IMG/VR virus record: IMGVR_UViG_3300050014_001127
Coordinates: 1-49,622 of that record
Source of the DNA: a virus
Strand: one strand, 5' to 3'
DNA: 49,622 bases
Part shown: piece by piece, positions 15,081 to 49,622 of the stretch
Layout of the letters: each line of letters starts with the position of its first letter
Numbering within the stretch: position 1 is the stretch's first letter
Made by a program: the position numbers and the translations under genes
The notes under the pieces: generated by a model
What the model was told of the DNA's origin: nothing
The model's input: the letters and a program-made list of their open reading frames with translations, nothing else
The model's database searches: none

Positions 15081-15515
15081 TTAAGTTGCTATCCCTCTAT
15101 TTTTACTTTTAAGAACATTTTTTTGAAGAAAATCCTTATCTTTTCTTATTCCCCGCTTGTAATTATACTGATTCATCTTTTTTTCTTCTTCTGGATAATG
15201 ATTTAATCCCAAATATGCTTTTTGAGAAATTTTTTCACCTGGAGTTTGCAATTCTTTCCATAGATAATTGTCTTTTCCTGGTTTTCCGATTCTTTTGTCT
15301 ATAGGAATTTTGATCAAATCCAAAACATCTTCAGTAAAGGTAATAGCTTCGTAAGTATAATAGACCCATCTTAAATAGCTTGGCATACTTTTTGCAAGAG
15401 ATTCTATAGGTATTTTTCCGAATTTACCAAAATCTAAACGACTTTTTAAAGTTAGTGTTCTTAAAAGGGTTCTATCTTCAAATAATTCTTCTAGTGATTC
15501 AAAAACAAAATTCAT
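15081..15515 (-). CDS. hypothetical protein with ESL-type N-terminal peptide, 144 aa
   Basis: The protein begins MNFVFESLEELFED. The same pattern opens the proteins at 49228 (MEKLVYESLDELNED) and 47970-48779 (MKLVTESLSDFLSEA), which are otherwise unrelated. The rest is basic and helical with no recognised domain. A class B box precedes the start. The shared N-terminus may be a capsid-targeting or assembly signal; that is inference. Confidence 0.72.
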   Translation of the reverse strand: MNFVFESLEELFEDRTLLRTLTLKSRLDFGKFGKIPIESLAKSMPSYLRWVYYTYEAITFTEDVLDLIKIPIDKRIGKPGKDNYLWKELQTPGEKISQKAYLGLNHYPEEEKKMNQYNYKRGIRKDKDFLQKNVLKSKNRGIAT

Positions 15516-15520
15516 AAGGC

Positions 15521-15538
15521 TTTTTCCTTATATATTTT
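15521..15538 (-). promoter_or_regulatory. class B (late-type) promoter-like box
   Basis: On the minus strand AAAATATATAAGGAAAAA lies about 23 bases before the ATG at 15515. It shares the AATATATAA core with the better copies at 2421 and 49203. Confidence 0.4.
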
Positions 15539-15583
15539 GCAATTATTTTCCACAGTAGACTCATTATTTTTCAAAATTGGAGA

Positions 15584-15889
15584 TTATTTTCCACCATGGA
15601 ACCATTTATGGTAAGTATTTTCCACCTTCTGAGGCAAAGTAACATACCTGCGATCCCATCGAATGTAAGAATTCCAAAGCCAGATAGAAATAGCGAAAAT
15701 AAGAACCGTGGCAATGGCAACCTTAATTAAATGTGGAATGATACTGATAATTTTCTGAAATTTTTTGTGAAGTTTGATTACAAAATGTTCCTCGTGATTA
15801 CTTTTTGGTCGATAAATGTCAAATTTATCTTTGTTAATTTTGATAAATTCCTCTATTGAATCTTCAGTTAAATTATCCCAGTTCCCCAT
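15584..15889 (-). CDS. single-pass membrane protein, Bacteroidota-type, 101 aa
   Basis: The N-terminal 45 residues are acidic, then amphipathic; one membrane helix (LIKVAIATVLIFAISIWLW, about 54-72) follows, and the C-terminus is basic. The phrase FDIYRPKSNHEEHFVIKLHKKF resembles small Bacteroidota membrane proteins, often encoded near ECF sigma factors, that carry an FDxxEPxxxHxxRFxxKL motif. This suggests capture of a host gene and possibly interference with host regulation; both are inference. Confidence 0.72.
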   Translation of the reverse strand: MGNWDNLTEDSIEEFIKINKDKFDIYRPKSNHEEHFVIKLHKKFQKIISIIPHLIKVAIATVLIFAISIWLWNSYIRWDRRYVTLPQKVENTYHKWFHGGK

Positions 15890-15922
15890 ATTTTTAATTG
15901 TAAATTTTTAAAATAATCTTGC

Positions 15923-15939
15923 GGATATATATAATAAAG
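15923..15939 (+). promoter_or_regulatory. class B (late-type) promoter-like box
   Basis: GGATATATATAATAAAG lies 2 bases before the ATG at 15942, matching the box before the homing gene at 8057. Confidence 0.5.
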
Positions 15940-15941
15940 CT

Positions 15942-16997
15942 ATGATTAAGGAAAAATATTTAAATATAAAAATTTACAACCCCAATATCAAATATTATCA
16001 ATTATTGGGATTTAATTGTAAATTTGGCGACATTATAGAAGTTCCTACTACTATTTGTAGTAATTGTGGAATTGAAAAACAAAATATTCTTAAAAATTAC
16101 TATAAGTGTATAAATACTAGTGATCTCAAAATCTATGTTTGTTCTGAGTGTTCTTATATAAAAAATAAAAATACATGTTTAAAAAATCACGGGGTAGAAT
16201 ATCCAATGCAATCAGAAGATATAAGAAACATAAAAAAATCAACATGTAATAAAAAATATGGGGTAGATCATTATTCTCAAACAGATGAATATAAAATTAA
16301 AGTAAATAACACTTATTTTAAAAAATATGGAAAACATTACTTTGAAACAGATGAGTTTAAGAATAAATCTAAGAATACTTGTTTAAAAAATCATGGGGTA
16401 GAATATCCGATGCAATCAGAAGATATAAGAAATAAATCGAAAGAAACATTATTTAAAAAATATGGAGTCACTAATATCTCCCAATTAGAAAATATCAAAA
16501 TTGATAAAATTAATACTTGTTTAAAAAACTATGATGTTGAATTTCCTATGCAATCAGAACTTATCAAAAATAAAAGAAAAATATTCTGTAATAAAAAATA
16601 TGAATGTAATCACGAAATGCAAAATTTAGAATATTTTAATTATTGGTTACTTAAAACATATAAAATTAAAACTTATAGAAACACTAAATTATTTTATCAA
16701 GGATCATACGAATTGGATTTTTTAGAAAATTTCGAAAGCAAAATTCATATAAAAAACGGATTATCATTTGATTATTTTTCCAAAAATAAAAATCATAAAT
16801 ATTTTTCAGATTTTTATCTGCCTGAATTTAATTTAATTATAGAAATTAAAAGTAGTTTTACATTTTATAGTAATAAATCTATAAATTTATTAAAAGAACA
16901 AAAAGTATTAAATAGTGGATATAATTTTATTTTTATTATTGATAAAGATTATTCGGATTTTAGTAAGATAATTGGATTAAACGATCCGCACATTTAA
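15942..16997 (+). CDS. homing endonuclease-like protein with KYGV repeats and PD-(D/E)XK core, 351 aa
   Basis: The N-terminal part has two CxxC pairs (CSNCGIEK and CSECSYIK), a likely zinc ribbon. The middle is built of about seven repeats of the form T-C-x-K-K-Y-G-V-x-x-x-Q-S-x-x-I, which probably bind DNA. The C-terminus has ELDFLE, then FSDFYLP and IEIKSSFTF, consistent with a PD-(D/E)XK (Vsr-like) nuclease. It is convergent with the exonuclease gene and overlaps its 3' end by 38 bases. Its very AT-rich coding sequence differs from its neighbours. It is a free-standing mobile gene. Confidence 0.82.
   Translation: MIKEKYLNIKIYNPNIKYYQLLGFNCKFGDIIEVPTTICSNCGIEKQNILKNYYKCINTSDLKIYVCSECSYIKNKNTCLKNHGVEYPMQSEDIRNIKKSTCNKKYGVDHYSQTDEYKIKVNNTYFKKYGKHYFETDEFKNKSKNTCLKNHGVEYPMQSEDIRNKSKETLFKKYGVTNISQLENIKIDKINTCLKNYDVEFPMQSELIKNKRKIFCNKKYECNHEMQNLEYFNYWLLKTYKIKTYRNTKLFYQGSYELDFLENFESKIHIKNGLSFDYFSKNKNHKYFSDFYLPEFNLIIEIKSSFTFYSNKSINLLKEQKVLNSGYNFIFIIDKDYSDFSKIIGLNDPHI
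16171..16571 (+). repeat. near-identical direct repeats inside the homing gene
   Basis: Two stretches of about 57 bases, beginning near 16171 and near 16375, differ at only a few positions and encode the same block (CLKNHGVEYPMQSEDIRN). A third, more diverged copy begins near 16511. They show recent amplification of the DNA-binding repeat. Confidence 0.75.
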
Positions 16998-17658
16998 CTG
17001 TGGCTTCTACATCTTTTTCACAATAATTTTTAATTTCTTCAAGACGGCCATCAAAATATGCTCCTGCTACTTTATCTCCTGATAATTCTTCCTTTGAACT
17101 TTTTATACCTAAAGAAACACATATCATTTCCATAGGTGTATAAGATTCTTGCTTACATCCTTGACCCCATACTTCGATAATATCATAAACATTAACATTC
17201 CAGGGTTTTATGCCATAAACATTAATACTTTTTGGAGGAATAACCCCATTAGACATCATACGCTTTGAAAGCCATGGCATATCATATCTAGTTATTCCCG
17301 CCCCACAAAGTATTAATCCTTGCTGTTCTACTTTATTAAAAAGAGCGGCTACAGAAACCATAAGTTTAGCTTCATCATCTCCATAAAGAGATTTTATGAT
17401 TATTTCTCCTTTATGAAAATACCCATAAGAAACACAGATAATTTTACAAAACTCGGGAGCAAGATGGGAGTTGTTATCCCACCAACCTGAAGAGTCAATA
17501 GGATTTTTCCCCTCTTCAGTATTTTTTCGATTCCATTTTTCACATTGATGAAGAAATACTTCATATAATGGGGGATTCAAAACTCGGAGTTCGCTGATAG
17601 TTTTAGTTATAGGAACCCATTCACAATCCTAGAAGAAAAGTTTTTCTTTAGTAGGCAT
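16960..17658 (-). pseudogene. DEDD-type 3'-5' exonuclease (PolB-exonuclease-like) with in-frame amber codon
   Basis: From the ATG at 17658 the frame reads MPTKEKLFF, then TAG (17629-17631), then DCEWVPITKTISELR and 206 further residues without a break. DCE is exonuclease motif I; later motifs include GAGITRYDMPWL and CEKDVEATVKCADRL, as in the predicted PolB-related exonucleases (PF10108-like). The codon sits directly before the catalytic Asp. A restart at the TTG at 17580 would lose motif I, giving an inactive protein. It is either a recent nonsense mutation, a read-through site or a sequencing error. The 3' end overlaps a homing gene. Confidence 0.75.
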
Positions 17659-17669
17659 TATTTTCGTAT

Positions 17670-18014
17670 TTAACTGAGTCCAAGTTTGGCTCCCCTCATA
17701 TAGAGGTTTGTAAGAAAACCCGAAATTCTGTTAAAAGTGTACATTTTAGAAATATCCTCTTTGTATTTTTCGGCTTTCAATTTGCTTACATGAGTTGTTG
17801 GATCATTAAGAATATTGTAAAATTCTCTCTTTAATCCTTCGGGATCATTTACATACTTATCAGCATTTTTGAGGAGAACTTCCACTCTCAATGATACACT
17901 TTTGCCGTCTTCAATTCTTGTAATGTCAGGCATGTTAGCATACCTTTTTTCATTACCATTTAAAAGTCTTCTTCCCACTTTATAATTTTTTAAATAGATT
18001 ATTTCTTTTTTCAT
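17670..18014 (-). CDS. hypothetical protein, 114 aa
   Basis: This basic helical protein has no recognised domain; the middle (KSVSLRVEVLLKNADKYV) and the end (FLTNLYMRGAKLGLS) are amphipathic. I chose the ATG at 18014 (MKKEIIYLKNYK); the longer frame would overlap the small membrane protein upstream almost fully. It lies 11 bases before the exonuclease start and is probably in the same transcript. Confidence 0.7.
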   Translation of the reverse strand: MKKEIIYLKNYKVGRRLLNGNEKRYANMPDITRIEDGKSVSLRVEVLLKNADKYVNDPEGLKREFYNILNDPTTHVSKLKAEKYKEDISKMYTFNRISGFLTNLYMRGAKLGLS

Positions 18015-18129
18015 GAATATTAGTAGCATGCTTAGATTCCCACTTATTATAAAGAAGAAATAAAACAACTATAATAGCAACTACTCCTACTCCGATAACT
18101 ACTTTGATTAATTCTAGATCAGTTTCCAT
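17980..18129 (-). CDS. small single-pass membrane protein, 49 aa
   Basis: From an ATG at 18129 the frame reads METDLELIKV, then a strongly hydrophobic helix (VVIGVGVVAIIVVLFLLY), then a basic tail ending LFKKL and TAA at 17980. It has a clear membrane helix with positive-inside charge and fills a gap otherwise empty of genes, directly behind a class A promoter-like element. It overlaps the next start by 35 bases in another frame. Confidence 0.7.
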   Translation of the reverse strand: METDLELIKVVIGVGVVAIIVVLFLLYNKWESKHATNIHEKRNNLFKKL

Positions 18130-18144
18130 TTTGTATCACTTTTA

Positions 18145-18184
18145 ATATATGTACTAAAAAAATTCCAAATAAAAAAATATTTCA
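18145..18184 (-). promoter_or_regulatory. class A promoter-like element (variant -7 box)
   Basis: On the minus strand AAATATTTTTTTA, 15 bases, then GTACATATA. The upstream part and the spacing are exactly as in the other copies, but the -7 box ends ATATA instead of ATTTG. It lies 16 bases before the ATG at 18129. Confidence 0.5.
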
Positions 18185-18188
18185 TAAA

Positions 18189-18575
18189 TTATTTTTTCCA
18201 ATCGAAATCTGAAAGAGCAAACCATTCTCTGAATTTATCTATACAGGCTTCTAAAGAATTAAAATAAAGTTCATCGCCATTCCCCGTTTCTCCTATATTT
18301 TCTGTTTTATACCATCCTACTGCATATTCATTTGCTTCTACCTCTTCTGTGTCAAAGGAAATATAATAAAATTCCTTATTTTTTGTAAACCCAATAGTAA
18401 TTCTATCCTTTCCAGTTTGATCTTCGATTTCTGTTCCTAGAGATGTAGCTAATTTCTCAACAGCATCTGTTATTTCTTGATGAATTTTAGCTATTTTTCT
18501 TTCTCCAACCATGCCAATATCCATAGCATCGTATGGTTCTTGGCCACGTTCGAAATTTACAGTTTTTGCTCTCAT
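18189..18575 (-). CDS. hypothetical protein with NFERG N-terminal motif, 128 aa
   Basis: The start MRAKTVNFERGQEPYDAMDIG resembles that of the 1366-1878 protein, and xNFxR is also found in the tandem-domain proteins at 46-48 kb. The remainder is an acidic alpha/beta protein with no recognised domain. A class B box lies in the 3' end of the upstream gene, so this gene can be expressed independently at late times. A virion or assembly role is inferred from promoter and N-terminus only. Confidence 0.75.
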   Translation of the reverse strand: MRAKTVNFERGQEPYDAMDIGMVGERKIAKIHQEITDAVEKLATSLGTEIEDQTGKDRITIGFTKNKEFYYISFDTEEVEANEYAVGWYKTENIGETGNGDELYFNSLEACIDKFREWFALSDFDWKK

Positions 18576-18581
18576 AAGAGG

Positions 18582-18597
18582 TTTATTTTATTTATCC
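18582..18597 (-). promoter_or_regulatory. class B (late-type) promoter-like box
   Basis: On the minus strand GGATAAATAAAATAAA spans the stop region of the ATP-grasp gene, about 22 bases before the ATG at 18575. It differs from GAATATATAAAATAAA at three positions. Confidence 0.5.
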
Positions 18598-19505
18598 TCC
18601 TCCTTACCCCATATTTCCTCCCAATCTTTAACAGCTGCTTCGGAAACTGCATCTACTATTAATCCAAGATCGTTCCCATACATTCCTGCACAAGAAAAAC
18701 ATCCGATTTCAATAACTTTATAGTTTTGGTATCCTGAAATTAAGGCTACATCTATTGTCCAAGCATGATCTGGATTGTATTTATTAGCACCTCGTTGAGC
18801 AGCATCCCAAGCAAGTTTATCATCGCATCCTTCCCACAAAGAATGAGAATTCATCAAAACATAATCTTTGGTAGATACGTTTCTACTTTGTTTTTCGCCA
18901 TGACTCCAGTCTCTATAAAGACTTCCGGCAATAACTTTTCCACCAACAATTACAAATCTCCATTCTTTTTTAATATTCTTAACAGAGGATATTAAACATA
19001 AAAGATCCGGGTCAACATCATAAAATCCAGCTAATTTGACACACTCTTCAAAATTGTATTCTGGACAGATCATTCCGGTAAATTCTTTCATCCCTGAATT
19101 AGGACGAATGAAAACCTTTCGAGGACCATATCCTCCAAATGTATCAAAAATAAAATCTCTTTTACGGATAAGCTCGCCATAGGGAAGCATCATATAGTGT
19201 TCATGCAAAAGATTTTCTCCAATAAAAGGATAGTATGAAGTGCATTCATATTCTCTTTTCTTAAGATAAACTCCTGGTGTCCACTGACATGCCATCAATT
19301 TACGTCCAAAGTTAAGAGAACCATAAAATACTACACATTCCCCGATACCGTAAATTTCTTCGCACCTTTCCACAAGATGATCGTCAAATGGAACATACGG
19401 AATTTTTCTTACTGTTGCTCCATCAGCAATCAAGAGATCATAAATTTTATCGGTGTTGTCGGTAAAAACATCAGGCTCAATAAGCCATTTAACTTTATGA
19501 TTCAT
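18588..19505 (-). CDS. ATP-grasp protein, R2K-clade-like, 305 aa
   Basis: The C-terminal half has the ATP-grasp pattern: KVFIRPNSG (about 129-137, nucleotide-binding Lys/Arg), EWRFVIVGGKVIAGSLYR (about 186-203), then AWTIDVAL and YKVIEIGCFSCAGMYG with the metal-binding acid and the following small residues. The spacing fits the R2K clade found in phages and in predicted conflict systems, thought to ligate amino acids or peptides to a protein or small molecule. The substrate is unknown. It overlaps the SET-domain gene by 11 bases, suggesting a joint function. Confidence 0.8.
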   Translation of the reverse strand: MNHKVKWLIEPDVFTDNTDKIYDLLIADGATVRKIPYVPFDDHLVERCEEIYGIGECVVFYGSLNFGRKLMACQWTPGVYLKKREYECTSYYPFIGENLLHEHYMMLPYGELIRKRDFIFDTFGGYGPRKVFIRPNSGMKEFTGMICPEYNFEECVKLAGFYDVDPDLLCLISSVKNIKKEWRFVIVGGKVIAGSLYRDWSHGEKQSRNVSTKDYVLMNSHSLWEGCDDKLAWDAAQRGANKYNPDHAWTIDVALISGYQNYKVIEIGCFSCAGMYGNDLGLIVDAVSEAAVKDWEEIWGKEEDK

Positions 19506-19881
19506 AAGCCCATTTTATAAATTTTTTGCCAGCATAGTCATCAATTTCCCAATAATCGATAGTTAGTTCTTCCCCAACTTCAATATCCCTTAGTGTTACT
19601 ACTTCTCCCTTTTCATTTGGCCCTGTGTTGGGGGTATCGGAGTGATTCGTAAATCGGTCATTATCCACACAAAGAATCCAATGTTTAAGCTGCAAATCAT
19701 AGTAAGCATACTTTTGAAGAAACAGATGTTCTGCAATGGAATAGGTATCGTGTTCATAAAGAATTCGATCCAGATGAGGATTAAATCTCCATGTGATGGT
19801 TCCCTTGGGCAATCTCATTTTAGTAAAAACCCCAATTCCTTCTATAGGACTTTTGTCCAGGTAAGTATCAATTAGTAGCAT
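19495..19881 (-). CDS. SET-domain protein (putative lysine methyltransferase), 128 aa
   Basis: SET signatures are clear: GIGVFTKMRLPKGT (15-28), the NHSDTPNT motif (79-86, from the N-H-S-x-x-P-N family signature) and TLRDIEVGEELTIDYW (96-111) with the catalytic-type tyrosine. The domain is minimal, with no post-SET zinc site. SET enzymes methylate protein lysines using S-adenosylmethionine. The target could be host or phage protein. It is coupled to the ATP-grasp gene downstream and overlaps the upstream gene by 14 bases. Confidence 0.88.
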   Translation of the reverse strand: MLLIDTYLDKSPIEGIGVFTKMRLPKGTITWRFNPHLDRILYEHDTYSIAEHLFLQKYAYYDLQLKHWILCVDNDRFTNHSDTPNTGPNEKGEVVTLRDIEVGEELTIDYWEIDDYAGKKFIKWAYES

Positions 19882-20287
19882 CTTTTATCCAATCTGTTTT
19901 AACTTTAACTCGGATGGCTCTTCTTTTCTTGCAACCATCTATTTTCATAAAAATGCGAAAGACCAAAAATGATTCGGAGGTTAATCCTCTACGACCAGCT
20001 CTTTCAACAGTATAGGAAACATACCAAGTGATATTTTTTCCCATCCATTTGCTTGGAATAGTTTCCATGAAACCACTCCGAGTTTTGCACTGATGACCTT
20101 TGAATTCTAAAATGAGTTTATCTTCAAATGCGGGTAGATTTTCTTCCCAAAAATGAACAAGAATAAGTTGTATTAGCTTATCTCTTTTGATAGCATCAAC
20201 TTCAAGAATTTGTTTCATAGTCATTTTATGAAAAAACTTCATGAGTCTTTTAAAATGATCAATTGAACAAATAGGCTGTCTTTCCAT
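19868..20287 (-). CDS. hypothetical basic protein, 139 aa
   Basis: No domain is recognised. The protein is basic and has a strand-rich second half (ITWYVSYTVERAGRRG, FLVFRIFMKIDG). I chose the ATG at 20287 (MERQPICSID), since the longer frame starts with TTG inside the promoter. It is first of a unit that includes the SET and ATP-grasp genes. Confidence 0.72.
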   Translation of the reverse strand: MERQPICSIDHFKRLMKFFHKMTMKQILEVDAIKRDKLIQLILVHFWEENLPAFEDKLILEFKGHQCKTRSGFMETIPSKWMGKNITWYVSYTVERAGRRGLTSESFLVFRIFMKIDGCKKRRAIRVKVKTDWIKDATN

Positions 20288-20305
20288 GTTTATACTTTTA
20301 AAAAA

Positions 20306-20314
20306 CAAATATAC
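20306..20314 (-). promoter_or_regulatory. class A -7 box (GTATATTTG) for the SET/ATP-grasp unit
   Basis: GTATATTTG lies immediately after the T-run of the upstream terminator and 18 bases before the ATG at 20287. The usual T-run/A element at 15-16 bases is not present; that position is occupied by the terminator stem. Confidence 0.45.
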
Positions 20315-20346
20315 GAAAAAAGCTCTTAGGTTAGTAAGAGCTTTTG
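20315..20346 (-). terminator. rho-independent terminator after the zinc-finger gene
   Basis: On the minus strand AAGCTCTTA and TAAGAGCTT form a stem with a 6-base loop, followed by TTTTC. It lies just after the stop at 20358 and runs directly into the next promoter box. Confidence 0.7.
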
Positions 20347-20357
20347 TTAAGAAATTG

Positions 20358-21098
20358 TTAAATAGTAAACTTTGTCCTTAATTCTGGTCCAAGAAGAGGA
20401 TAACCCCATTTTTCTAGAACCGAATTATACTGATCAAAAGTAATTATGCCTTTCTGAAATTTCTTTAGTTCCTGGTTAACTCTGGTATGAAAAGGAACCT
20501 TATCTTCAGTATAGAATTGAATGTAAATCATGAAGCAGTATTTCTTCATCATCTCCTGAAGAACCGTAGTAGTTAAATTCTCTACCCCTATTTTTTCTAT
20601 TTCAGCTAAGATAATCTGGGCAGCTGTATTTCTACCAAAAACATGTTCGATGAGGTAATTTTTCTCTTCCTTAGTACTTTTTGGATGATCTAATGTAGCT
20701 ATGGAATAGAGGTCCTGATTAGCGTGATCGTAAATAGAGTTCTCAATGATTCTATAAGTTTTCTTAATGAAATATTGAGCTGTGGATTTCTTTTTGTAGA
20801 TAGGAATGATTGTTGCAGCCCAAATAAGAACATCTCTAAAATTTAAGAGGATACACTTATTGCAGAGTTTGGCTTTATGGCCCGGAACAATTTCCCCGCA
20901 TTCTGGGCATCTAGCTATTTTAGATAATCGTTCTTTTTCAATACAGTCGGGGCAAGTACGTCTGCCATTAAATTTATCGAGAGGAACTATCTCTTTACAT
21001 TTGTTACAAACTTTGTAAGAGTTCCCATTTTGATCTAGCAATATTGTTTTGGACTTTTTCTTGGGTCTGAAAACAAGTTGGTCTTTCTGATTGTTCAT
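20358..21098 (-). CDS. multi-zinc-ribbon protein, 246 aa
   Basis: The first 85 residues hold three or more CxxC pairs: CNKC (32-35), CPDC (54-57), CPEC (69-72) and CNKC (84-87), arranged as two zinc ribbons. A helical domain follows, with a hydrophobic segment (LIWAATIIPIY) too short to be a sure membrane helix. Stacked ribbons usually bind nucleic acid or ribosomes. The gene has its own terminator, and a bidirectional terminator lies upstream, so it is monocistronic. The family is not recognised. Confidence 0.75.
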   Translation of the reverse strand: MNNQKDQLVFRPKKKSKTILLDQNGNSYKVCNKCKEIVPLDKFNGRRTCPDCIEKERLSKIARCPECGEIVPGHKAKLCNKCILLNFRDVLIWAATIIPIYKKKSTAQYFIKKTYRIIENSIYDHANQDLYSIATLDHPKSTKEEKNYLIEHVFGRNTAAQIILAEIEKIGVENLTTTVLQEMMKKYCFMIYIQFYTEDKVPFHTRVNQELKKFQKGIITFDQYNSVLEKWGYPLLGPELRTKFTI

Positions 21099-21204
21099 TA
21101 AACTGTTGGATTTGGTTGTTTAAATAATTTGTTTAAATGACCTTGGTTAAATGATCATTTGGGCATTATATCTTCAAACCTAAAAAAGTTTTAATGAACA
21201 CAGC
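21099..21204 (-). promoter_or_regulatory. intergenic leader of the multi-zinc-ribbon gene
   Basis: This stretch between a terminator and the ATG at 21098 must hold the gene's promoter. The minus strand shows CTTTTTTAGG followed by a TTTG and GATATAATG, but no class A -7 box. Several TTTAAACAA/TTTAACCAA-like repeats occur close to the start; they could be operator sites. No firm element can be named. Confidence 0.3.
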
Positions 21205-21236
21205 AAACCCTCAGATTTCTCTGAGGGTTTTTTGTT
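21204..21236. terminator. hairpin terminator, possibly bidirectional
   Basis: AAACCCTCAG and CTGAGGGTTT form a perfect 10-bp stem with a 6-base loop. The plus strand continues with TTT, giving a run of six T; the minus strand continues with GCTG after three T. It lies downstream of the minus-strand gene ending at 21246. Confidence 0.65.
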
Positions 21237-21245
21237 GTTAAAAAT

Positions 21246-21449
21246 TTAAACAGCTTTGCTAAATGACTGAAGAAGTTCTCTTAAAGCCGAATCTGTTAAA
21301 AAAAGATCCGCCCTTTTTAAATAAGCCATCCCGATATAATAAATAGTTTCAGGATCATGTTCTTTTTGAATAGATTTGCTAAGATTTTTTGAAAGAATCT
21401 TTAAATCCTTTTTTTGATCTTTTGAAAGTTTAAGTTTTATAATTTCCAT
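21246..21449 (-). CDS. hypothetical helical protein, 67 aa
   Basis: The protein is lysine-rich and wholly helical (MEIIKLKLSKDQKKD), with TPR-like spacing in YYIGMAYLKRADLFL. I chose the ATG at 21449 over a GTG at 21470 that lies inside the upstream stop region. It is the last gene of the unit that starts near 23605. Confidence 0.65.
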   Translation of the reverse strand: MEIIKLKLSKDQKKDLKILSKNLSKSIQKEHDPETIYYIGMAYLKRADLFLTDSALRELLQSFSKAV

Positions 21450-21460
21450 TTTTTTATTTT

Positions 21461-21739
21461 TTATCCCCACATTATATCAAATGGTTTCTCATTCATGTCG
21501 TATGGATAGTTTGTAATTTTCCAGCTATCGCATTTTTTCCTTAATTTTTTAAGACCAATATGTCTTCGAATTATACCCTTAGCTGATAGAAGATTGCCCG
21601 ATCTGGTGCTATGATCTTTGTATAAATGAAGCCTAGTAGGCCCAATATTAACCCAAAGACCAAACCACATCCTATACTGAGCTATGAAAACCGGGGCTTC
21701 ATTAAGAAACTGAATTTTTTGAACTCTGTATCTCGACAT
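21461..21739 (-). CDS. hypothetical protein, 92 aa
   Basis: This is a basic, aromatic-rich protein with no recognised domain; the segment GLWVNIGPTRLHLYKDH is its most distinctive part. It begins 58 bases inside the upstream gene in another frame, an arrangement common in this unit. The long overlap leaves the exact start uncertain; Met24 (21670) would remove it. Confidence 0.65.
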   Translation of the reverse strand: MSRYRVQKIQFLNEAPVFIAQYRMWFGLWVNIGPTRLHLYKDHSTRSGNLLSAKGIIRRHIGLKKLRKKCDSWKITNYPYDMNEKPFDIMWG

Positions 21740-22690: not shown

Positions 22691-22691
22691 A

Positions 22692-23605: not shown

Positions 23606-23614
23606 ATTAAGAAA

Positions 23615-41602: not shown

Positions 41603-41606
41603 ACGA

Positions 41607-41650: not shown

Positions 41651-41653
41651 TTT

Positions 41654-42145: not shown

Positions 42146-42160
42146 CCACTGGGTCTTATT

Positions 42161-42877: not shown

Positions 42878-43658
42878 CTTTTTTCTTTGTCGGGGGTCTT
42901 CCCCTTTTCTTTTTTTCAGGGGGAGGGACTTTTGAGGCTTTATATGCTGACCATTTTTTGTATATTTCGTTGAGTTCAGCACACTTTAAATAATCCTCTT
43001 TGTCCTGATAAACTTTGATTAATCGATCAATAAAGGTTTTGACTTTATCATCAGTCAACACAATAATCATTTTCTTATCAGCAAATATGGCAAAAACGTC
43101 TCCATCTTTATAATTGACTTTTAAGAAATTGTAGCATTTTTCCGCAAATCCTGGAAAATTCTCTTTTCCATAAAAATCGGGGGGTTGACCATCTGGGTCA
43201 AGACTAAATATTACTCTTTTATCTATTGATATAGCAACTTGAACCAAAGACATTAAACTTGGAGTTCCCTGCTGTTGTCTTGCTTGTGCTATTTCTTCTA
43301 GTGTTTGTCGGGCAACATCATCCAAAAATAGTAGCAATGTTTTTTTAAAATCTGCATATCCATGATGAATAATACTTTCCGAAAGATTCCAAGAAGGATT
43401 TACTTCAGTATCATGCAGAAAAACTACATGAGAATAACAATGAAGTTGAAGTACATCTGATCCCAATTTATTGTAATCGTCTGCTACTGGATTTTTAAAT
43501 TCTCCCCAAACACACCAGGTATTTGGTACCTCGTCTAATCTTTGGGTTTTCATATTATCGAATTCCACAAAGAGATTGAGAATCTCCTGATCGGAAAATG
43601 TATGTTCTTTGGGGGATAGTTCCTCCGTTAGTCCGTTACCATAAAGGAGAATCGCCAT
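42858..43658 (-). CDS. hypothetical protein with AT-hook-like tail, 266 aa
   Basis: The N-terminal region (MAILLYGNGLTEELSPKEHTFSDQEI) and the middle, a helical domain (about 105-200), are not recognised. The C-terminus has KKRGRPPTKKKDE, an AT-hook-like GRP motif in a basic context, which could bind AT-rich DNA. It precedes and overlaps the fibre-like gene by 20 bases. A weak class B box lies upstream. Confidence 0.75.
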   Translation of the reverse strand: MAILLYGNGLTEELSPKEHTFSDQEILNLFVEFDNMKTQRLDEVPNTWCVWGEFKNPVADDYNKLGSDVLQLHCYSHVVFLHDTEVNPSWNLSESIIHHGYADFKKTLLLFLDDVARQTLEEIAQARQQQGTPSLMSLVQVAISIDKRVIFSLDPDGQPPDFYGKENFPGFAEKCYNFLKVNYKDGDVFAIFADKKMIIVLTDDKVKTFIDRLIKVYQDKEDYLKCAELNEIYKKWSAYKASKVPPPEKKKRGRPPTKKKDETPTK

Positions 43659-43683
43659 AATGATATATAGTTTATATAAGTTA

Positions 43684-43699
43684 TTACTTTTATATATTG
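43684..43699 (-). promoter_or_regulatory. weak class B (late-type) promoter-like box
   Basis: On the minus strand CAATATATAAAAGTAA lies about 40 bases before the ATG at 43658. The divergent homing gene starts at 43724, and the whole gap is AT-rich with TATATA on both strands, so the call is uncertain. Confidence 0.35.
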
Positions 43700-43723
43700 T
43701 ATGATTAAAAATGCAAAAAGTTT

Positions 43724-44434
43724 ATGGAAAAGGAATTCCATTTTGTTTATGTTACTACAAATCTTATAAATGGAAAACAATATGTTGGGGAACACTCTAC
43801 TAATGATATGGATTGTCGGAAAACGAAAAAATATACGGGCAGCGGATTATACATTGATAATGCGAAAAAACTTTACGGAAGAAAAAACTTTGAAAGAAAG
43901 GATTTAGAATTTTTCCCAACAAAGAAAGAAGCTTTTAATGCTCAAGAAAAATATATCCAACAATATGGTACTTTAAATCCCGATGGATACAATATTAGTC
44001 CCAAAGGAGGAAACTGGGGTGGAATAAAAGGATGTGCTTCTGAAGATACAAAGCGAAAAATGAGGGTACCCAAATCTAAAGAACATAAAGAACATATGTC
44101 TTTAGCTTGGATTGAAAGAAGAAAAACTCCGGTTTCAACACAAACTAGAGAAAAACTAGGAAAAGCAAGAGAGGGCAAAACCCATGATCAAAACTCTAAA
44201 GATAAAATAGGATATGCCAATACTATCAGAGTTTGGAAAGATGAATCCCGATTAAATTTAAGCAAAAAAAGATCTAGTACACATCATTCCGAAAAAACTA
44301 AAGAATTAATTGGCAAAAAAATACCATGTAAATATTGTGGTAAGGAAATGAATGCAGGAAATTTAGCTAGATACCACAATGAAAATTGTGTTTTTAAATT
44401 TACTTTGCAAAACGTTGACGAGCTGCATCAGTAA
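43724..44434 (+). CDS. GIY-YIG homing endonuclease with C-terminal zinc finger, 236 aa
   Basis: The nuclease domain reads HFVYVTTNLINGKQYVGEHS (6-25), with YTGSG and EAFNAQEKYIQQYG. Basic NUMOD-like repeats follow, and the end has a CKYC-x12-H-x4-C zinc finger. The protein is closely similar to the one at 7374-8057. It is convergent with the IMPDH/GMPR-like gene and overlaps its 3' end by 35 bases, so its last 10 or so residues are antisense to that gene's end. Confidence 0.92.
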   Translation: MEKEFHFVYVTTNLINGKQYVGEHSTNDMDCRKTKKYTGSGLYIDNAKKLYGRKNFERKDLEFFPTKKEAFNAQEKYIQQYGTLNPDGYNISPKGGNWGGIKGCASEDTKRKMRVPKSKEHKEHMSLAWIERRKTPVSTQTREKLGKAREGKTHDQNSKDKIGYANTIRVWKDESRLNLSKKRSSTHHSEKTKELIGKKIPCKYCGKEMNAGNLARYHNENCVFKFTLQNVDELHQ

Positions 44435-45452
44435 TAAAAACCCATTCTGCTTCGCCAATAAATTCATAAAGATTTCTAGCTCCGCAATAACTCATATTAG
44501 ATCTCAAATAATCTTCAAAATTTTCAGTCCACTGATGCAAATTATATTCTACTTTTTGATATTTTGTAATTCCTTCGGCAGTTACAAGTCTGGTTTTTCC
44601 CCATTTTCTTTGAACTGCTTTTGTACTCATTCCACGATATTTTTTCTTAACAGGAAACCCCCATTTCCATAATGTCTTAGCAATATGGAATGGGATTTTT
44701 ACTCCGTAAAGATAATTGAACCCCGCACTTTGCATAGACTTGTTGAATAAGGATCCTACCATCACGTAATCTGCACCCAAAGCTAAGGCCTTAATAATAT
44801 CATCGAACCCTTGCATGCCTCCGTCTGCCACGATTTTAGCATTCAAATTCGAGTCCTTCTTAATTTTATGACATTCGCTTATTAAGGATCCTAGAGGATA
44901 ATTTATAGCTACATTTGCTGCAGTAGTACATCCGGCTCCGGTTCCAATAGAACATCTTACATAATCTGCTCCTGCCAATGCTAAATTCTTATAAGTCAAT
45001 GGATGAGCAACATTACCCACCATTATTTTTATTTTGGGATACTTAATTTTTATTTGAGCAACTATCTTAAGCAACCTAGTCATGTGTCCGTTAGCAATAT
45101 CTATAAGAATATTTGGATAATCAAAGAAATGATTGGTTCCTTCAATAACTAAATCCATTTCCAATTCCTCTTCAATCTCTTGTAACCCAAACGATTGAAA
45201 CATATATTCTTTATCCAATGTTCCCAAATCTGAACAATATTGTCCTCTTGGTATGCAAGGAACAATTCCTGCTCGAACATAAGCCATTCTATTCTTCGAA
45301 CATACAACCGTATCCATGGGAGCAGCTAATAAAGGTAATGTATAAAATGCTCCATTGAAGTCCTTTCGGGTTTGACAGTATTTTCTACTATCAATGCCAC
45401 TTTCTATAGCTGGGATAATCGAAATGTCTCTTAAATCAAACTTTTTGTCCAT
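44400..45452 (-). CDS. IMP dehydrogenase / GMP reductase-like enzyme, 350 aa
   Basis: The barrel carries APMDTV (44-49), GNVAHPLTYKNLALAGADYVRCSIG (about 146-170), the catalytic loop TGAGCTT with C175, and ADGGMQGFDDIIKALALGADYVMVGSLF. A YRGMSTKA segment follows. There are no CBS domains. The absence of CBS and the length favour a GMP reductase-like form, but IMP dehydrogenase activity cannot be excluded; the loop GTGAGCTT departs from the usual GPGSxCTT. It would adjust guanine nucleotide pools. I chose the ATG at 45452. Confidence 0.88.
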   Translation of the reverse strand: MDKKFDLRDISIIPAIESGIDSRKYCQTRKDFNGAFYTLPLLAAPMDTVVCSKNRMAYVRAGIVPCIPRGQYCSDLGTLDKEYMFQSFGLQEIEEELEMDLVIEGTNHFFDYPNILIDIANGHMTRLLKIVAQIKIKYPKIKIMVGNVAHPLTYKNLALAGADYVRCSIGTGAGCTTAANVAINYPLGSLISECHKIKKDSNLNAKIVADGGMQGFDDIIKALALGADYVMVGSLFNKSMQSAGFNYLYGVKIPFHIAKTLWKWGFPVKKKYRGMSTKAVQRKWGKTRLVTAEGITKYQKVEYNLHQWTENFEDYLRSNMSYCGARNLYEFIGEAEWVFITDAARQRFAK

Positions 45453-45477
45453 GATTATATTTGTATAGTCCTTATAA

Positions 45478-45507
45478 AAGAAAAACCCCATAAAGTTTTA
45501 TGGGGTT
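45478..45507 (-). terminator. rho-independent terminator after the WYL_2-like gene
   Basis: AACCCCATAAA and TTTATGGGGTT form a perfect stem of 10-11 bp, followed on the minus strand by TTTCTTTT. It lies just after the stop at 45514. It is the most stable-looking hairpin in the window. Confidence 0.8.
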
Positions 45508-45513
45508 ATATGA

Positions 45514-46392
45514 TTATTGTTCGAGTTCTTCTGCGCCAGGTTCTTCCTGAATTTCTTTAGGTGGCTCTTTTGAGGTAGCCTGTTGAATTGGAAGTAAAAC
45601 TGTTGTAGGTTCTTCTTCTTTAGGTGCTGGAGCTGCTGGTTGTTTGGTTAAAGTTCTTCTGGTTATTGGGGTTACTTTAGGAATCCTATAATTAGGATGT
45701 TCTACAATTTCACCAATATTTTTAATTCTAGACTCTGGTATTTTAAATACTGCACCATCTCGAATAGTCTTAGCATAAACTCCTCCATCCGGATCCAGCT
45801 GATATATTTCTATTTCAATATTTACACCCTTTCGGTTAAGATAATCTCTAACTTCTCCAACATGTAATTCCTGACCTTCATCTTCAACTGGTTTGGTAAT
45901 TGGTTCAACCTGTGGTTTTTCTTCCTTACCCTTATCAATTGTTTTGTCCTCTTTATCCTTACCAAGTTTCTTATCAATATCTTTAACAACTACGATTGGC
46001 CTATTGTTTTCTTCATCTTTTTTAAGAACAATCTCTTTACTTCTTTGAGAAACACTTCTCCAAGCCATTTTATCAAGATCATAGAATGTAGCAACTTTAG
46101 GACTCGATGGACGAATTCCCTTTGGATGGTCTTCATTAGGAATATATTTCATCATAGTTGTTCCCCTAGCTGGACGAACCTCCCCATCAAGTTTGATGAA
46201 TTCAAAGTTTAGAATTTTCTTTCTAAGTATCTTACGAAGTTCGGGAACGGTGATAGGTTCTCCATAAAGAAACTTTTCACAAAGTAATTCTTTATAAAAA
46301 AAGTCTACAATTTGTTTATCTTCCAGTTTCTCGCATATACGAGAGCCGAAAAGTTCTTCTGCTAAAATGTTCTTAATTATAAATTGATTCAT
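45514..46392 (-). CDS. protein with WYL_2 (Sm-like, DUF2693) domain, 292 aa
   Basis: An N-terminal helical part precedes FEFIKLDGEVRPARGTTMMKY (about 63-83) and VATFYDLDKMAWRSVS (about 100-115), which match the WYL_2/DUF2693 small-barrel domain found in T4-like phages. The rest is a long low-complexity tail rich in Lys, Glu and Pro with a second small domain (about 175-235, VRDYLNRKGVNIEIEIYQ). It ends the late-type unit that begins with the cupin gene, overlapping its upstream neighbour by 4 bases. Confidence 0.75.
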   Translation of the reverse strand: MNQFIIKNILAEELFGSRICEKLEDKQIVDFFYKELLCEKFLYGEPITVPELRKILRKKILNFEFIKLDGEVRPARGTTMMKYIPNEDHPKGIRPSSPKVATFYDLDKMAWRSVSQRSKEIVLKKDEENNRPIVVVKDIDKKLGKDKEDKTIDKGKEEKPQVEPITKPVEDEGQELHVGEVRDYLNRKGVNIEIEIYQLDPDGGVYAKTIRDGAVFKIPESRIKNIGEIVEHPNYRIPKVTPITRRTLTKQPAAPAPKEEEPTTVLLPIQQATSKEPPKEIQEEPGAEELEQ

Positions 46393-47186
46393 CGAAATTT
46401 TATTGTTATTCCTAATTTGGAACGTATTTTTTCTATATATTCTGGGGTTATGGTAGGCTTTACTAAATCCATTTCTTCAGCAGATAAAGGACTTAAATTA
46501 GATTTTCGTTTCATTGTAGGATTCAAATTAACCCAATTCTTTTTGTATAAGTTGAAATATACTTTTCCTGAAGGATTTGAAGCCGTCTTTTTTCTTCCTA
46601 TATGACCTATTCCTATTACTAAAACAAGACGATTCTCCATTTCCTCTTCCTGAATATAGGAATAAACAATATCTGTATATTTATTTACAAGAAGTTGACC
46701 TGGCTGCCACCCAAATAAAATATCCTTTATTTCTTGATCGGATTTAGCTCTTTGAAAATTTACGGATTCTTTTATTGGGTTTTTTAACTTATTCCAATCT
46801 ATAAATTTCGTATATACCTCTTCATTTTCGGGGTCTCTAGTTAATTCTATAATATAATTATATTCTTTATCAGATAACGTTGCCATTCCTGATTCATGCA
46901 TTGAACATTGTGGCCAATCCTTATTCCACATCATATCTTGAAATAGGAAATCTTCGCAATCTCCTTCTATAATTCCTAATTTAGTGGAAGAAAAACAATA
47001 CCCATGTTCTTCAAAAAACTTATCCTTTCTTTTATTACTTATGAGGTAAACGGGAACTCCATTGTGAATATCATTTTTTGTTGAATTTGACACAAACTGC
47101 CCATTCTGAAAACCGCCAAAATGAGTTCTCATAGCTCTTTCATCAGAAAGTCTTTTAAAATTTATACTTTCTCTTACGATTTTCAT
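46389..47186 (-). CDS. two-copy repeat-domain protein (FxR...GQ family), 265 aa
   Basis: The protein consists of two related units of about 130 residues. Each starts with ES(I/V)NFxR and has a GGFQNGQ or FGWQPGQ phrase about 20 residues later: residues about 7-30 and 142-167. Each ends with an acidic helix. The next gene upstream holds two more copies. The function is unknown; the start MKIVRESINFKR resembles the other late N-termini. It overlaps the upstream gene by 4 bases. Confidence 0.78.
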   Translation of the reverse strand: MKIVRESINFKRLSDERAMRTHFGGFQNGQFVSNSTKNDIHNGVPVYLISNKRKDKFFEEHGYCFSSTKLGIIEGDCEDFLFQDMMWNKDWPQCSMHESGMATLSDKEYNYIIELTRDPENEEVYTKFIDWNKLKNPIKESVNFQRAKSDQEIKDILFGWQPGQLLVNKYTDIVYSYIQEEEMENRLVLVIGIGHIGRKKTASNPSGKVYFNLYKKNWVNLNPTMKRKSNLSPLSAEEMDLVKPTITPEYIEKIRSKLGITIKFR

Positions 47187-47986
47187 ACGAATGGTTTTAC
47201 TCCTACTAATTGAATTACCCTGTCAATATATTTCTTTGATTTTGGGCTGGATATAGCATTATAAATAACTAGTTTTTCCATTTGGGTGGGTTCCTCCAAA
47301 CTACTCTCTCTTTTTACAACAAGCCCCTGAAATGGTCCTAAATGTATAAAAGCATAAGGGGGATTTCCTGAAACGGAACCTATCTCCAAACAATGAATAG
47401 TCCAGTCATCAACTCCTCCTGGTATTAATTGATCTTTTTTTTCAGCAAAAACATATAGAGTAATCATAGCTCCATGAACAGCAAGTATTTGTCCACGTCT
47501 CCAATCGAATAAGGATCTTTTGATTTCTTGCTCCGTTCTTCCTCTTTTAAATGCTTCATTTAATGTTGGAGATATTCCGGTGTCCTTCTTTATCTTAGAC
47601 ATAAAATCGGGATATTGAGCTATTTTCTTTTTGACTAATTCTATTTCGAAATCTTCCAACCCTCTTTTTCCTTCTTCAAAAAGACTTACTTCTTGTAATA
47701 CCTTGAGATTGCTTAAAGAAAAATGTGTAATTTCCTTTTGGCCAATCGATCTAACTAAATTTCCTATTTGATATGTGATCATTCTCGGGGTTGAAGTAAT
47801 AGAATTATCATCGGGGCCAATATACATATAAACTTCTAGATATGGTTTTCGATTTTTATCCCTATCTCTTGCAAAAGTTATAAGTTGACCAGGACGAAAT
47901 CCAAGAAGCTTATCTTTAATGGATCTGCCAGAAGTATTACGTTCAAAATGAATTTCTTCTCTAACAAGTTTACTCAGTTGTTCCAT
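47183..47986 (-). CDS. two-copy repeat-domain protein (FxR...GQ family), 267 aa
   Basis: Copy one begins KLVREEIHFERN with LLGFRPGQ; copy two begins LNEAFKRGR with LFDWRRGQ. Both then show strands and a C-terminal helix. The internal copies and those of the downstream gene make four tandem units. I chose the ATG at 47986 (MEQLSKLVREE), which overlaps the cupin gene by 17 bases, because the longer frame would add 29 residues inside the cupin. An alternative start lies at 48004. Confidence 0.75.
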   Translation of the reverse strand: MEQLSKLVREEIHFERNTSGRSIKDKLLGFRPGQLITFARDRDKNRKPYLEVYMYIGPDDNSITSTPRMITYQIGNLVRSIGQKEITHFSLSNLKVLQEVSLFEEGKRGLEDFEIELVKKKIAQYPDFMSKIKKDTGISPTLNEAFKRGRTEQEIKRSLFDWRRGQILAVHGAMITLYVFAEKKDQLIPGGVDDWTIHCLEIGSVSGNPPYAFIHLGPFQGLVVKRESSLEEPTQMEKLVIYNAISSPKSKKYIDRVIQLVGVKPFV

Positions 47987-48779
47987 CGAATTCGTCTTCT
48001 CCATTTTTTTCAGCTTCTTCGCCAGCTTCTTTTGTTTGATAAATAGTACCATCTTTATGATTAGGAGGTCCATAAAGGGTATATAGTTGAAGGTCTTCTG
48101 TATCGCTTGTATTGATTATATCGTGTTCTGCTCCGCCAGGAACAAAAACTGAGTCCCCATCCTTAACATCGTATTCTTCATCATTGATAATACATTGGCC
48201 TACACCTTCTTCAAATCTAAAAAATTGATCTGCTTCGTGGTGTTCTAACCCAATATTTTCACCGGGTTTCAAAGTCATCAATACAAGTTGAAGATTCTTA
48301 CCAGTATAAAGAACTTTTCGATAATTTTCATTTTCTAAAGTATCCTCTTGAATATCATCATGAAATCCTTTTTTGGTTGATCCCTCTTCGGGGCTCGTTT
48401 CGTCTTCTGCGGGTTCTTCATTTCCTTTATCTCGAGCCATGTTATAGATATATTCCTCCATTTCATGAACATTTACCCCTAGCTCATCAGCTAATTCGTG
48501 AATGTCATCGTCTTCAAATTCCCCCTGATAATTATCAATAAAATCCTCAATAGCTTTCTTTTGCTCTGGAGTAAATTTATCTTCTTCCTGGTCCTCAGTT
48601 ACCCCAGCTTCCTCAGACTCGGTTATTTCTTCAGCATAATGATCCAGTTCATGATCATCTTTATTTTGATCCTTACTCAATAGTTTATGAGTATCCTTAT
48701 CAATTTTCCCGCCTAAAGTTGGATCTAACTTTGTAGCTTCCGATAAAAAATCCGATAAACTTTCTGTAACTAATTTCAT
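47970..48779 (-). CDS. cupin-domain protein with acidic linker and ESL-type N-terminus, 269 aa
   Basis: The N-terminus MKLVTESLSDFLSEA contains LSE-A, a fit to the T4 head-protease cleavage rule. An acidic, low-complexity linker (about 30-150) leads to a single cupin domain: LVLMTLKPGENIGLEHHEADQ with the metal-site histidines, FFRFEEGVGQ, and GDSVFVPGGAEH. The linked phrase YGPPNHKDGT is shared with bacterial cupins of this type. The cupin's reaction is unknown. It heads a late-type unit. If its N-terminus is a capsid signal, a cupin enzyme would be carried inside the head. Confidence 0.82.
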   Translation of the reverse strand: MKLVTESLSDFLSEATKLDPTLGGKIDKDTHKLLSKDQNKDDHELDHYAEEITESEEAGVTEDQEEDKFTPEQKKAIEDFIDNYQGEFEDDDIHELADELGVNVHEMEEYIYNMARDKGNEEPAEDETSPEEGSTKKGFHDDIQEDTLENENYRKVLYTGKNLQLVLMTLKPGENIGLEHHEADQFFRFEEGVGQCIINDEEYDVKDGDSVFVPGGAEHDIINTSDTEDLQLYTLYGPPNHKDGTIYQTKEAGEEAEKNGEDEFDGTTE

Positions 48780-48790
48780 GATGGGTATAA

Positions 48791-48806
48791 TTTATTTATA
48801 TATTCC
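48791..48806 (-). promoter_or_regulatory. class B (late-type) promoter-like box
   Basis: On the minus strand GGAATATATAAATAAA lies about 27 bases before the ATG at 48779. It directly follows the T-run of the tRNA terminator, another fused terminator-promoter. Confidence 0.55.
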
Positions 48807-48836
48807 ACAAAAAAGCCTGAGATAACTCTCAGGCTT
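48807..48836 (-). terminator. rho-independent terminator downstream of the tRNA
   Basis: AAGCCTGAGA and TCTCAGGCTT form a perfect 10-bp stem with a 4-base loop, followed on the minus strand by TTTTG. It would end transcription of the tRNA at 48990-49063. Confidence 0.8.
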
Positions 48837-48989
48837 AATTCTTTATCCGCATCGGGAATATTGTTAAAATATTGTTAAATCAAGAACTTTTTCGTTAAAC
48901 ATGTCTAACAAATAGGATAAATGCGATGCAATGACTCATTATAAAAAGCAAAATCCTCAAAATCCCCAAAGATATATATAAAAAATTAG
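48837..48989. other. intergenic stretch between the tRNA and its terminator
   Basis: I see no reading frame of useful length. The stretch is AT-rich, with repeated TTGTTAAA near 48861-48880. It may be part of the tRNA precursor; nothing else can be supported. Confidence 0.4.
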
Positions 48990-49063
48990 TGCAGTAGAGG
49001 GGAATCGAACCCCTACAAAACGATGCGTTAAAACGTTACTCTATCCAATTAAGATACTACTGC
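48990..49063 (-). tRNA. tRNA, apparent anticodon AAC (Val), no encoded CCA
   Basis: Read on the minus strand, the acceptor arms GCAGTAG/CTACTGC pair fully, and the T arm is AGGGG-TTCGATT-CCCCT. The D arm contains AATTGGAT with three pairs. The anticodon stem ACGTT/ATCGT has a T-T mismatch; the loop TTAACGC puts AAC at positions 34-36, which would read GTT (Val). An A at position 34 is rare in bacterial tRNAs other than Arg, so the isotype is uncertain. The base after the discriminator A is C, then T, so CCA must be added by enzyme. Confidence 0.8.
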
Positions 49064-49073
49064 AACCAATAAG

Positions 49074-49103
49074 AAACCACAATATATTAATGTTGTGGTT
49101 TTT
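49074..49103. other. hairpin upstream of the tRNA
   Basis: AAACCACAA and TTGTGGTTT form a 9-bp stem with a 10-base loop, with TT after it on the plus strand. No plus-strand gene lies before it, so a terminator role is unsure. It could end the small minus-strand frame at 49087-49227. Confidence 0.4.
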
Positions 49104-49227
49104 GCTGTTTGGTAATGTATATACTCACAGGAAGGGTTAAAGTTTTGTTGCTTAGCGTATTTATTTCCAAAGTAGAAACAATAATGAATGAGACAAAAAT
49201 CTGAATATATAAAATAAATACTTTCAT
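49087..49227 (-). CDS. possible small exported or membrane peptide, 46 aa
   Basis: From an ATG at 49227 the frame reads MKVFILYIQIFVSFIIVSTLE and ends KQQKPQH before TAA. The first 19 residues resemble a signal or membrane segment. However, the start abuts the plus-strand gene at 49228 and the frame runs antisense to that gene's class B box, so it may be chance. Confidence 0.3.
   Translation of the reverse strand: MKVFILYIQIFVSFIIVSTLEINTLSNKTLTLPVSIYITKQQKPQH
49203..49218 (+). promoter_or_regulatory. class B (late-type) promoter-like box
   Basis: GAATATATAAAATAAA lies 9 bases before the ATG at 49228. It is identical to the box at 2421-2436. Confidence 0.55.
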
Positions 49228-49622
49228 ATGGAAAAGTTGGTTTATGAATCCCTGGATGAGCTGAATGAAGACTGGAAAAGTAAAATAGCTAAAGGACTTG
49301 TTGGAGCTGCCTTTGTTGGAAGTATGACTGGATTGCCTTCATGTTCTTCTAAAACTTCTGATAACTATGATAAAACTGAACAAACTTTCAAAACTAATGA
49401 CAAGAATTGGAAACATAAAGCTTACAAAAATATTTTTGATGAATTAAGCAAACACTATTATTTAAAAAATGCTTTTATAGAAGGCCCTTCTTCGATGTAC
49501 TATATAAACGATAACAAAACCGGCTGTAACATAGTTGGTAATGAGGAAAATATTAATAATATCAAGAGGGATATAATGAAATATTTACAATCCGAGCCAA
49601 CCCCTTCCAAGGAAGATAAATT
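49228..49622 (+). CDS. hypothetical protein with ESL-type N-terminus, 3' end outside window
   Basis: The protein opens MEKLVYESLDELNEDWKSK, sharing its N-terminal pattern with the 15081 and 47970 proteins. It is followed by a glycine-rich hydrophobic stretch (GLVGAAFVGSMTGLPSC, about 23-39) that ends in a lipobox-like LPSC. The rest is soluble and charged. If the hydrophobic stretch is a signal, the first 20 residues make an unusually long n-region; alternatively they are removed first. Frame is open to the window end (131 codons). Confidence 0.75.
   Translation, partial: MEKLVYESLDELNEDWKSKIAKGLVGAAFVGSMTGLPSCSSKTSDNYDKTEQTFKTNDKNWKHKAYKNIFDELSKHYYLKNAFIEGPSSMYYINDNKTGCNIVGNEENINNIKRDIMKYLQSEPTPSKEDK

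Follow-up and report, generated by a model that had tools for sequence, protein, structure and literature searches.

An N-terminal leader shared by unrelated megaphage proteins and its likeness to the capsid-targeting sequence of T4

The IMG/VR record IMGVR_UViG_3300050014_001127, classed as a virus record, is a 49.6-kb fragment of 49,622 nucleotides (hereafter the window, meaning the whole stretch of DNA that was analysed) in which seven proteins carry a short N-terminal peptide, referred to here as the leader or, wherever it lies in a protein, the tag. This leader is real, selected, modular and T4-like in its register, and it occurs in phages possessing a matching protease. We propose, with a probability of about 55%, that it is a capsid-targeting sequence processed by the prohead protease and carried by a large internal cargo that includes a cupin. 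A preliminary description of the window had already offered a capsid-targeting interpretation, which is partly supported by the present results.

Two classes of leader were distinguished. The class-1 consensus is MK(K)LVxESLxEF (83 unique N-termini in the fetched contigs), and class 2 takes the form MKxVxExINEKFxEESDPIxDMGIG in the related contigs G006, G008 and G009-G012, and MKxVxExInFERGxDPkxAMGIG in the window, G001 and L246-L260. We consider them one family because of bridging forms such as MKLVRESLNEYLGFTEDGDPVKNMGIG and MSKLVYESLLEFQRGNPSEALSLG. The window features are as follows, proteins being designated in the text by their first coordinate.

15471..15515, minus strand: class-1 leader MNFVFESLEELFEDR, start of gene 15081-15515
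15081..15515, minus strand: tagged protein, 144 amino acids, N-terminus MNFVFESLEELFED
15522..15535, minus strand: late-promoter-like box ATATATAAGGAAAA, upstream of 15081-15515
48735..48779, minus strand: class-1 leader MKLVTESLSDFLSEA of the cupin protein; its LSE-A follows the T4 gp21 rule
47970..48779, minus strand: tagged cupin protein, 269 amino acids, made of leader, TKLDPTLGGKIDKDTHKLL segment, helical domain and Cupin_2 domain
48791..48806, minus strand: late-promoter-like box GGAATATATAAATAAA, heading the 47970/47183/46389 unit
49228..49272, plus strand: class-1 leader MEKLVYESLDELNED
49228..49622, plus strand: tagged protein truncated at the contig end, with a hydrophobic stretch rich in Gly and Ala behind the leader
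49203..49218, plus strand: late-promoter-like box GAATATATAAAATAAA, upstream of 49228
1801..1878, minus strand: class-2 leader MKAKTIAEALDFNRDQNDPLKKLGIG, start of gene 1366-1878
1366..1878, minus strand: tagged protein, 170 amino acids, with orthologues in L253, L147 and G001, every one tagged
2350..2365, minus strand: late-promoter-like box GAATAAATAAAGAAAA, heading the 2114/1875/1366 unit
18513..18575, minus strand: class-2 leader MRAKTVNFERGQEPYDAMDIG (E 1.9e-8, model trained without the window)
18189..18575, minus strand: tagged protein, 128 amino acids, weak WGR-like match
18582..18597, minus strand: late-promoter-like box GGATAAATAAAATAAA, upstream of 18189-18575
47151..47186, minus strand: leader MKIVRESINFKR, start of gene 46389-47186
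46698..46784 (approximate), minus strand: further tag-like copy (IKESVNFQRAKSDQEIKDILFGWQPGQ) inside gene 46389-47186, its second
46389..47186, minus strand: two-module tagged protein, paralogue of 47183
47183..47986, minus strand: two-module tagged protein with an LVREEIHFERN start and an internal LNEAFKRGRTEQE; the longest open reading frame (ORF) starts from 48073

The h-V-x-E-S-L start (h, hydrophobic) reported earlier on three window proteins was recovered at the same coordinates and with the same N-termini. The pattern M-x(1-4)-h-x-ESL-xx-h is found in 3 of the 75 window genes, against a mean of 0.014 in 20,000 residue shuffles (never three), and in none of 175 non-gene ATG ORFs. A first regular expression had given only a 6-fold enrichment, the true motif being longer. 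Hidden Markov models (HMMs) of both classes were trained without the window; the class-1 model ranks 49228 (E 1.6e-6), 47970 (1.6e-5), 15081 (2e-3) and 46389 highest among the window proteins, and the class-2 model 18189 (2e-8), 46389 (8e-6), 1366 (4e-5) and 47183 (7e-4), so that the four genes said to have related starts are the top window matches of a model built from other phages. In shuffle controls the best sequence reached 3.5 bits with the class-2 model, and one of about 1500 shuffles reached 12.6 bits with the short class-1 model. The bodies had been called otherwise unrelated, and the leader is indeed a modular N-terminal element on unrelated proteins, except that 46389 and 47183, both built of two tag-plus-domain units, are paralogous to each other at 27% identity. 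No match in Pfam or PHROG and no homologue were found for 15081-15515.

The association with a promoter-like box also held: it stands before 4 of the 4 tagged genes that lead a unit, against 6 of 71 other genes (Fisher p 1.7e-4). The box has the form (G)AATATATAAA(T)AAA and resembles the T4 late promoter, TATAAATA. In the window it precedes the four tagged unit leaders and homing endonucleases, and is absent before the clamp, topoisomerase and ligase genes; elsewhere it also precedes the protease gene in both G007 and G009, as well as G007 190548. Comparison of tagged with untagged unit leaders gave p 2.6e-4 in G009, 0.07 in G006 and 0.04 in G007 (two genes only). Homing-endonuclease-like genes, read by eye, lie at 2440-3237, 7374-8057, 10111-10800, 15942-16997 and 43724-44434, some of them with a late-type box like that of the tagged genes.

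The clamp protein of the window is about 30% identical to the clamp of the Prevotella Lak megaphages, and its gyrase-type subunit matched nine uncultured contigs at 62-65% identity. The longest of these, G007 (322.9 kb), shows collinearity with the window between the clamp gene (window 505, G007 84.8 kb) and an IMPDH-like gene, so labelled by eye (window 44.4 kb, G007 107.3 kb). We propose that the tagged phages, uncultured and T4-like, form a megaphage clade related to the Lak phages. The preliminary description had suggested searching the whole genome for the motif, and in these megaphage relatives the leader is found genome-wide. About 50 of the 473 genes of G009 (405 kb) are tagged, and a loose DNA pattern of class 2 gave 51 matches in G009, 29 in G012, 15 in G025 and 12 in G027, none when read backwards, and none in G007, Lak-B5, LR756500 or T4. 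An HMM scan limited to unique proteins (2804) yielded 195 N-terminal and 130 internal tag copies in 220 proteins; counts across G009, G010 and G011 are not independent, these contigs overlapping in sequence. The class-1 model at 12 bits or more matched 71 proteins N-terminally, against 5 internal matches. When the 220 proteins were cut at their 325 tags, the bodies fell into 121 clusters, 84 of them singletons. Aligning 140 tagged proteins left MKLVxExINEKFxExSDPIxDMGIG as the only shared part, M1 and E10 reaching at least 90% conservation. Codon choice at the fixed residues is close to the genome background; therefore selection acts on the peptide and the copies are old. The per-column percentages of this codon analysis depend on a regular expression that itself imposed some of those residues.

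Sixty-two proteins carry several tags (2-7 each); the median distance between tags, 123 residues, roughly equals the size of a protein with one tag. Their internal copies keep h-N-E-K-F-x-E-E-S-D-P-I-x-D-M-G-I-G and retain little of MKxVxE. The clearest polyprotein-like gene, G006 75699-78377 (locus L037), has seven tags, and G009 73584-75773 and G012 9039-11522 also hold several in a single reading frame; modules of such genes are homologous to stand-alone tagged proteins. As far as could be found, tagged polyproteins are undescribed. A literature search limited to open-access papers returned nothing on a shared leader in megaphages, and searching 50,697 phage records with the leader peptides by tblastn gave no match and thus no cultured relative with virion data. 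The class-2 DNA pattern had 4 matches in bacterial genomes, about the chance estimate, and gave no sign of hosts carrying it.

Like the T4 capsid-targeting sequence, the leader is a short N-terminal peptide common to unrelated proteins. In the T4 record, IPII and IPIII start with MKTYQEFIAE-A and Alt with MELITELFDE (a hyphen before the last residues marks a known or candidate cut), and the tag has in common with T4 M1, K2, a hydrophobic residue 4, E6, a hydrophobic residue 8 and E10, of which M1, E6, hydrophobic 8 and E10 are also found in Alt. The T4 register M1-K2-x-Y/V4-x-E6-x-I/L8-x-E10 is followed, MKAxx forms being two residues shorter, and in its exact form it occurs 25 times in G009 against 0.29 in shuffles. 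According to a review (PMC9026906), residues 4 and 7 of the T4 sequence serve targeting, and 8 and 10 processing. The T4 term describes only the first ten residues of the leader, the DPxxxMGIG half having no T4 precedent. A T4-like end EF(I/L)xE-A is seen as DEFLNEA, EEFINEA, NEFMTEA or SDFLSEA in 8 of 83 class-1 leaders (0.28 by shuffling), and [LIM][NST]E[ASG] lies behind 5 of 57 non-redundant class-1 leaders against 41 of 2675 (p 0.002). Such a site followed by a Gly-rich stretch was found in only 1 of the 57. The LSE-A and IAE-A matches to the gp21 rule pointed out before are present but weak by themselves, since about 3-6% of untagged proteins also have (L/I)xE-(A/G/S) within their first 20 residues; in orthologues, the IAE-A of gene 1366 is VNE-V, VFE-K or VKE-Y.

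A prohead protease had likewise been looked to as a check, and the relatives provide one, Peptidase_S77 scoring above the cut-off in G001, G007, G009, G010, G019, G025, Lak-B5 and LR756500. In G007 (209366-211756) and G009 (306658-309003) it forms the N-terminus of a protein of 780-800 residues, and in these genes and in the G025 60813 region roughly 600 C-terminal residues of repeat-like sequence follow. This part is probably coiled-coil and probably the prohead core, so that the gene would be a protease-scaffold fusion adjoining the capsid gene. The adjoining gene in G007 and G009 encodes a Gp23 capsid protein with the site HALNE-AAMGG (G025, HALNE-AEMGG; T4, FLTE-AEIGG), and from this T4-like site beside the protease we conclude that the protease of the tagged phages very likely cuts LNE-A. 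In six phages an AAA+ ATPase has a class-1 leader and then LNE/MNE-(A/G/S) at residues 19-24, the residues between being variable, a pattern that gives the strongest single hint that the leader is removed. G007 also has a second, stand-alone Peptidase_S77-like gene (194919-195425), below the curated cut-off and distant from the capsid gene. Near the head genes (G007 195-207 kb, G009 285-304 kb), many consecutive genes look by eye like sugar-nucleotide and glycosyltransferase genes, which suggests glycan synthesis.

Among the 140 tagged proteins, matches were to ankyrin repeats in 11, to AAA+ in 5, to DUF5661 in 5 and to cupin domains in 3, and most have no match; no tag was seen on capsid, protease, clamp, ligase or topoisomerase proteins. 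The TKLDPTLGGKIDKDTHKLL segment of the window cupin recurs in G009 100667 and at the C-terminus of L172 8024. In four shorter phage cupins, 147-151 residues long, the middle part is missing and a leader is retained (MKKVVRESLNES, MKRLVKERLYED, identical in two, and MKILVKESLNQFLDES); a helical segment with IHELADELGVNVHEMEEYIY before the cupin (window 48426-48584, cupin residues 66-118) is also absent from these stand-alone proteins. The cupin orthologues came from pattern scans, whereas neither the cupin nor the 1366 protein had returned anything in related-locus scans. In L085, a tagged cupin and other tagged genes follow the tail-tube gene. The nearest cupin in phage records has no leader; its contig, L267 (OR846894.1, named Listeria phage LM 4-11-1), looks like a bacterial chromosome rather than a phage because ABC-transporter-like genes stand beside the cupin. 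Since the leader sits on unrelated bodies and is missing from this chromosome-like cupin, it must have been added and then kept by selection. AlphaFold2 models, built on shallow alignments of 9 and 4 sequences, respectively, gave a mean predicted local distance difference test score of about 36-60 for residues 1-28 of one tagged protein from the largest cargo family (body mostly 74-92), and below 50 for residues 1-65 of the window cupin (leader 33-42, cupin domain mostly 66-89); a leader strongly conserved and yet left unfolded is what a docking motif looks like. Foldseek gave no significant match for the largest cargo family, and PADLOC only few weak or generic matches. A DUF3008 protein and its neighbour, encoded by two window genes (2114-2341 and 1875-2111), appear fused in L253 (8328-9050), whose junctions hold tag-like VNEAF and VISESI sequences.

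We suggest that late transcription would yield cargo proteins whose unfolded leader docks on the prohead core through the helix face V4/E6/I8/E10 and, in many proteins, the F-xxxx-DPIxDMGIG that follows. The S77 prohead protease would then cut after an h-x-E, either within the leader or immediately behind it, and also between polyprotein modules, and the freed cargo would remain in the head and pass into the host together with the DNA; docking, cleavage, packaging and ejection are deduced here from sequence. In the window, the cargo would comprise the cupin, the family encoded beside the clamp gene and the two two-module paralogues. Several findings weigh against this proposal. The main doubts are that h-N-E in class 2 is followed by K and not A/G/S, so that the T4 rule is followed only up to the P1 position; that a cut at E10 would leave the DPIxDMGIG half on the mature protein, where its conservation needs another reason; and that the tagged share exceeds 10% of genes, far above the handful of T4. 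Besides, no Peptidase_S77 lies within the window fragment itself, G007 has the protease with few class-1 tags and no class-2 tag, the class-2 pattern is missing from Lak-B5, LR756500 and T4, and tagged genes are scattered beyond the head module.

The leader could instead dock or localise proteins at some other structure (the host membrane or pole, a replication compartment, the tail or the baseplate), its likeness to T4 being that of a generic amphipathic helix. This would suit FxxxxDPIxDMGIG, the most conserved part, which has no T4 counterpart, as well as the protease-bearing relatives without tags and the dispersal of tagged genes across the genome; we nevertheless think it rather unlikely, given the register match at M1, E6, h8 and E10, the late-type boxes and the tail and head genes that adjoin tagged genes. 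That the start is a relic of gene-family expansion, in which an ancestral small gene was duplicated and its 5' end kept by recombination while bodies diverged or were swapped, with no common function, appears improbable. Tandem arrangement (17 adjacent pairs against 5.6 expected) and paralogous body families of 46, 41 and 37 members speak for it, but synonymous codon choice has been randomised at residues that are themselves fixed, and the leader is shared by unrelated ATPases, cupins, ankyrins and DUF5661 proteins and absent from the chromosome-like cupin.

The abundance of multi-tag proteins and the h-N-E-K-F kept in their internal copies would also fit linkers that serve mainly for cleavage of polyproteins into effectors, with a secondary targeting role or none; as most tagged proteins have one tag, at the N-terminus, and a linker there would be useless, we give this little credence. 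Still harder to defend is a translated DNA or RNA element (a promoter, ribosome-binding or translation signal): location at gene starts near the box agrees with it, but 130 copies lie inside proteins, and conservation is at the amino-acid level with codon use near background. Import into a phiKZ-type nucleus was judged unlikely, no chimallin homologue being found in G007, G009, G025, Lak-B5 or LR756500, with the 201phi2-1 control recovered. Nor do the leaders read as Sec or lipoprotein signal peptides, as they are acidic, amphipathic and lack a hydrophobic core; in 49228 the hydrophobic stretch lies only downstream of the leader.

If capsid targeting is true, the 20-25 residue leader would be a sequence-level readout of the injected-protein repertoire of uncultured megaphages, pointing to candidate host-takeover or anti-defence proteins mostly left unnamed by homology searches. 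These phages would then also illustrate how a targeting signal that marks few proteins in T4 can come to mark a large arsenal, tagged polyproteins included. More tentatively, one leader on at least 10% of genes, singly or in polyproteins, might form a genome-wide tagging system that loads many diverse small proteins into the head for delivery to the host; this possible cargo would span ankyrin, leucine-rich-repeat-like, cupin, AAA+, zinc-ribbon-like and many orphan domains.

Among known systems, the Lak megaphages of Prevotella share a homologous sliding clamp, an S77 protease, a Gp23-type capsid protein and an AAA+ ATPase with an INE-G site; in contrast, Lak-B5, read with TAG as glutamine, lacks the tag family. 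SPN3US and phiKZ are likewise large phages with many head proteins, some losing propeptides to the prohead protease (gp245 and gp175, respectively; PMC10052503), but these are mostly long (111-254 residues) and without one common short leader, and about 80% of SPN3US head proteins are uncleaved. The capsid-targeting sequence of T4 (IPI, IPII, IPIII and the Alt propeptide) is likewise N-terminal, about 10 residues long, in the register M-K-x-[YV]-x-E-x-[IL]-x-E, on unrelated proteins, and in phages with an S77 protease and a Gp23 capsid protein. The present leader, a candidate packaging signal, differs in marking dozens of genes per genome against a handful in T4, in its second conserved half (DPIxDMGIG or FERGxDPxxAMGIG) and internal copies in multi-module proteins, and in that its second h-x-E is usually followed by K or F and not by A/G/S. 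Should tagging of cargo prove genome-wide, it would be a phage counterpart of a secreted effector repertoire.

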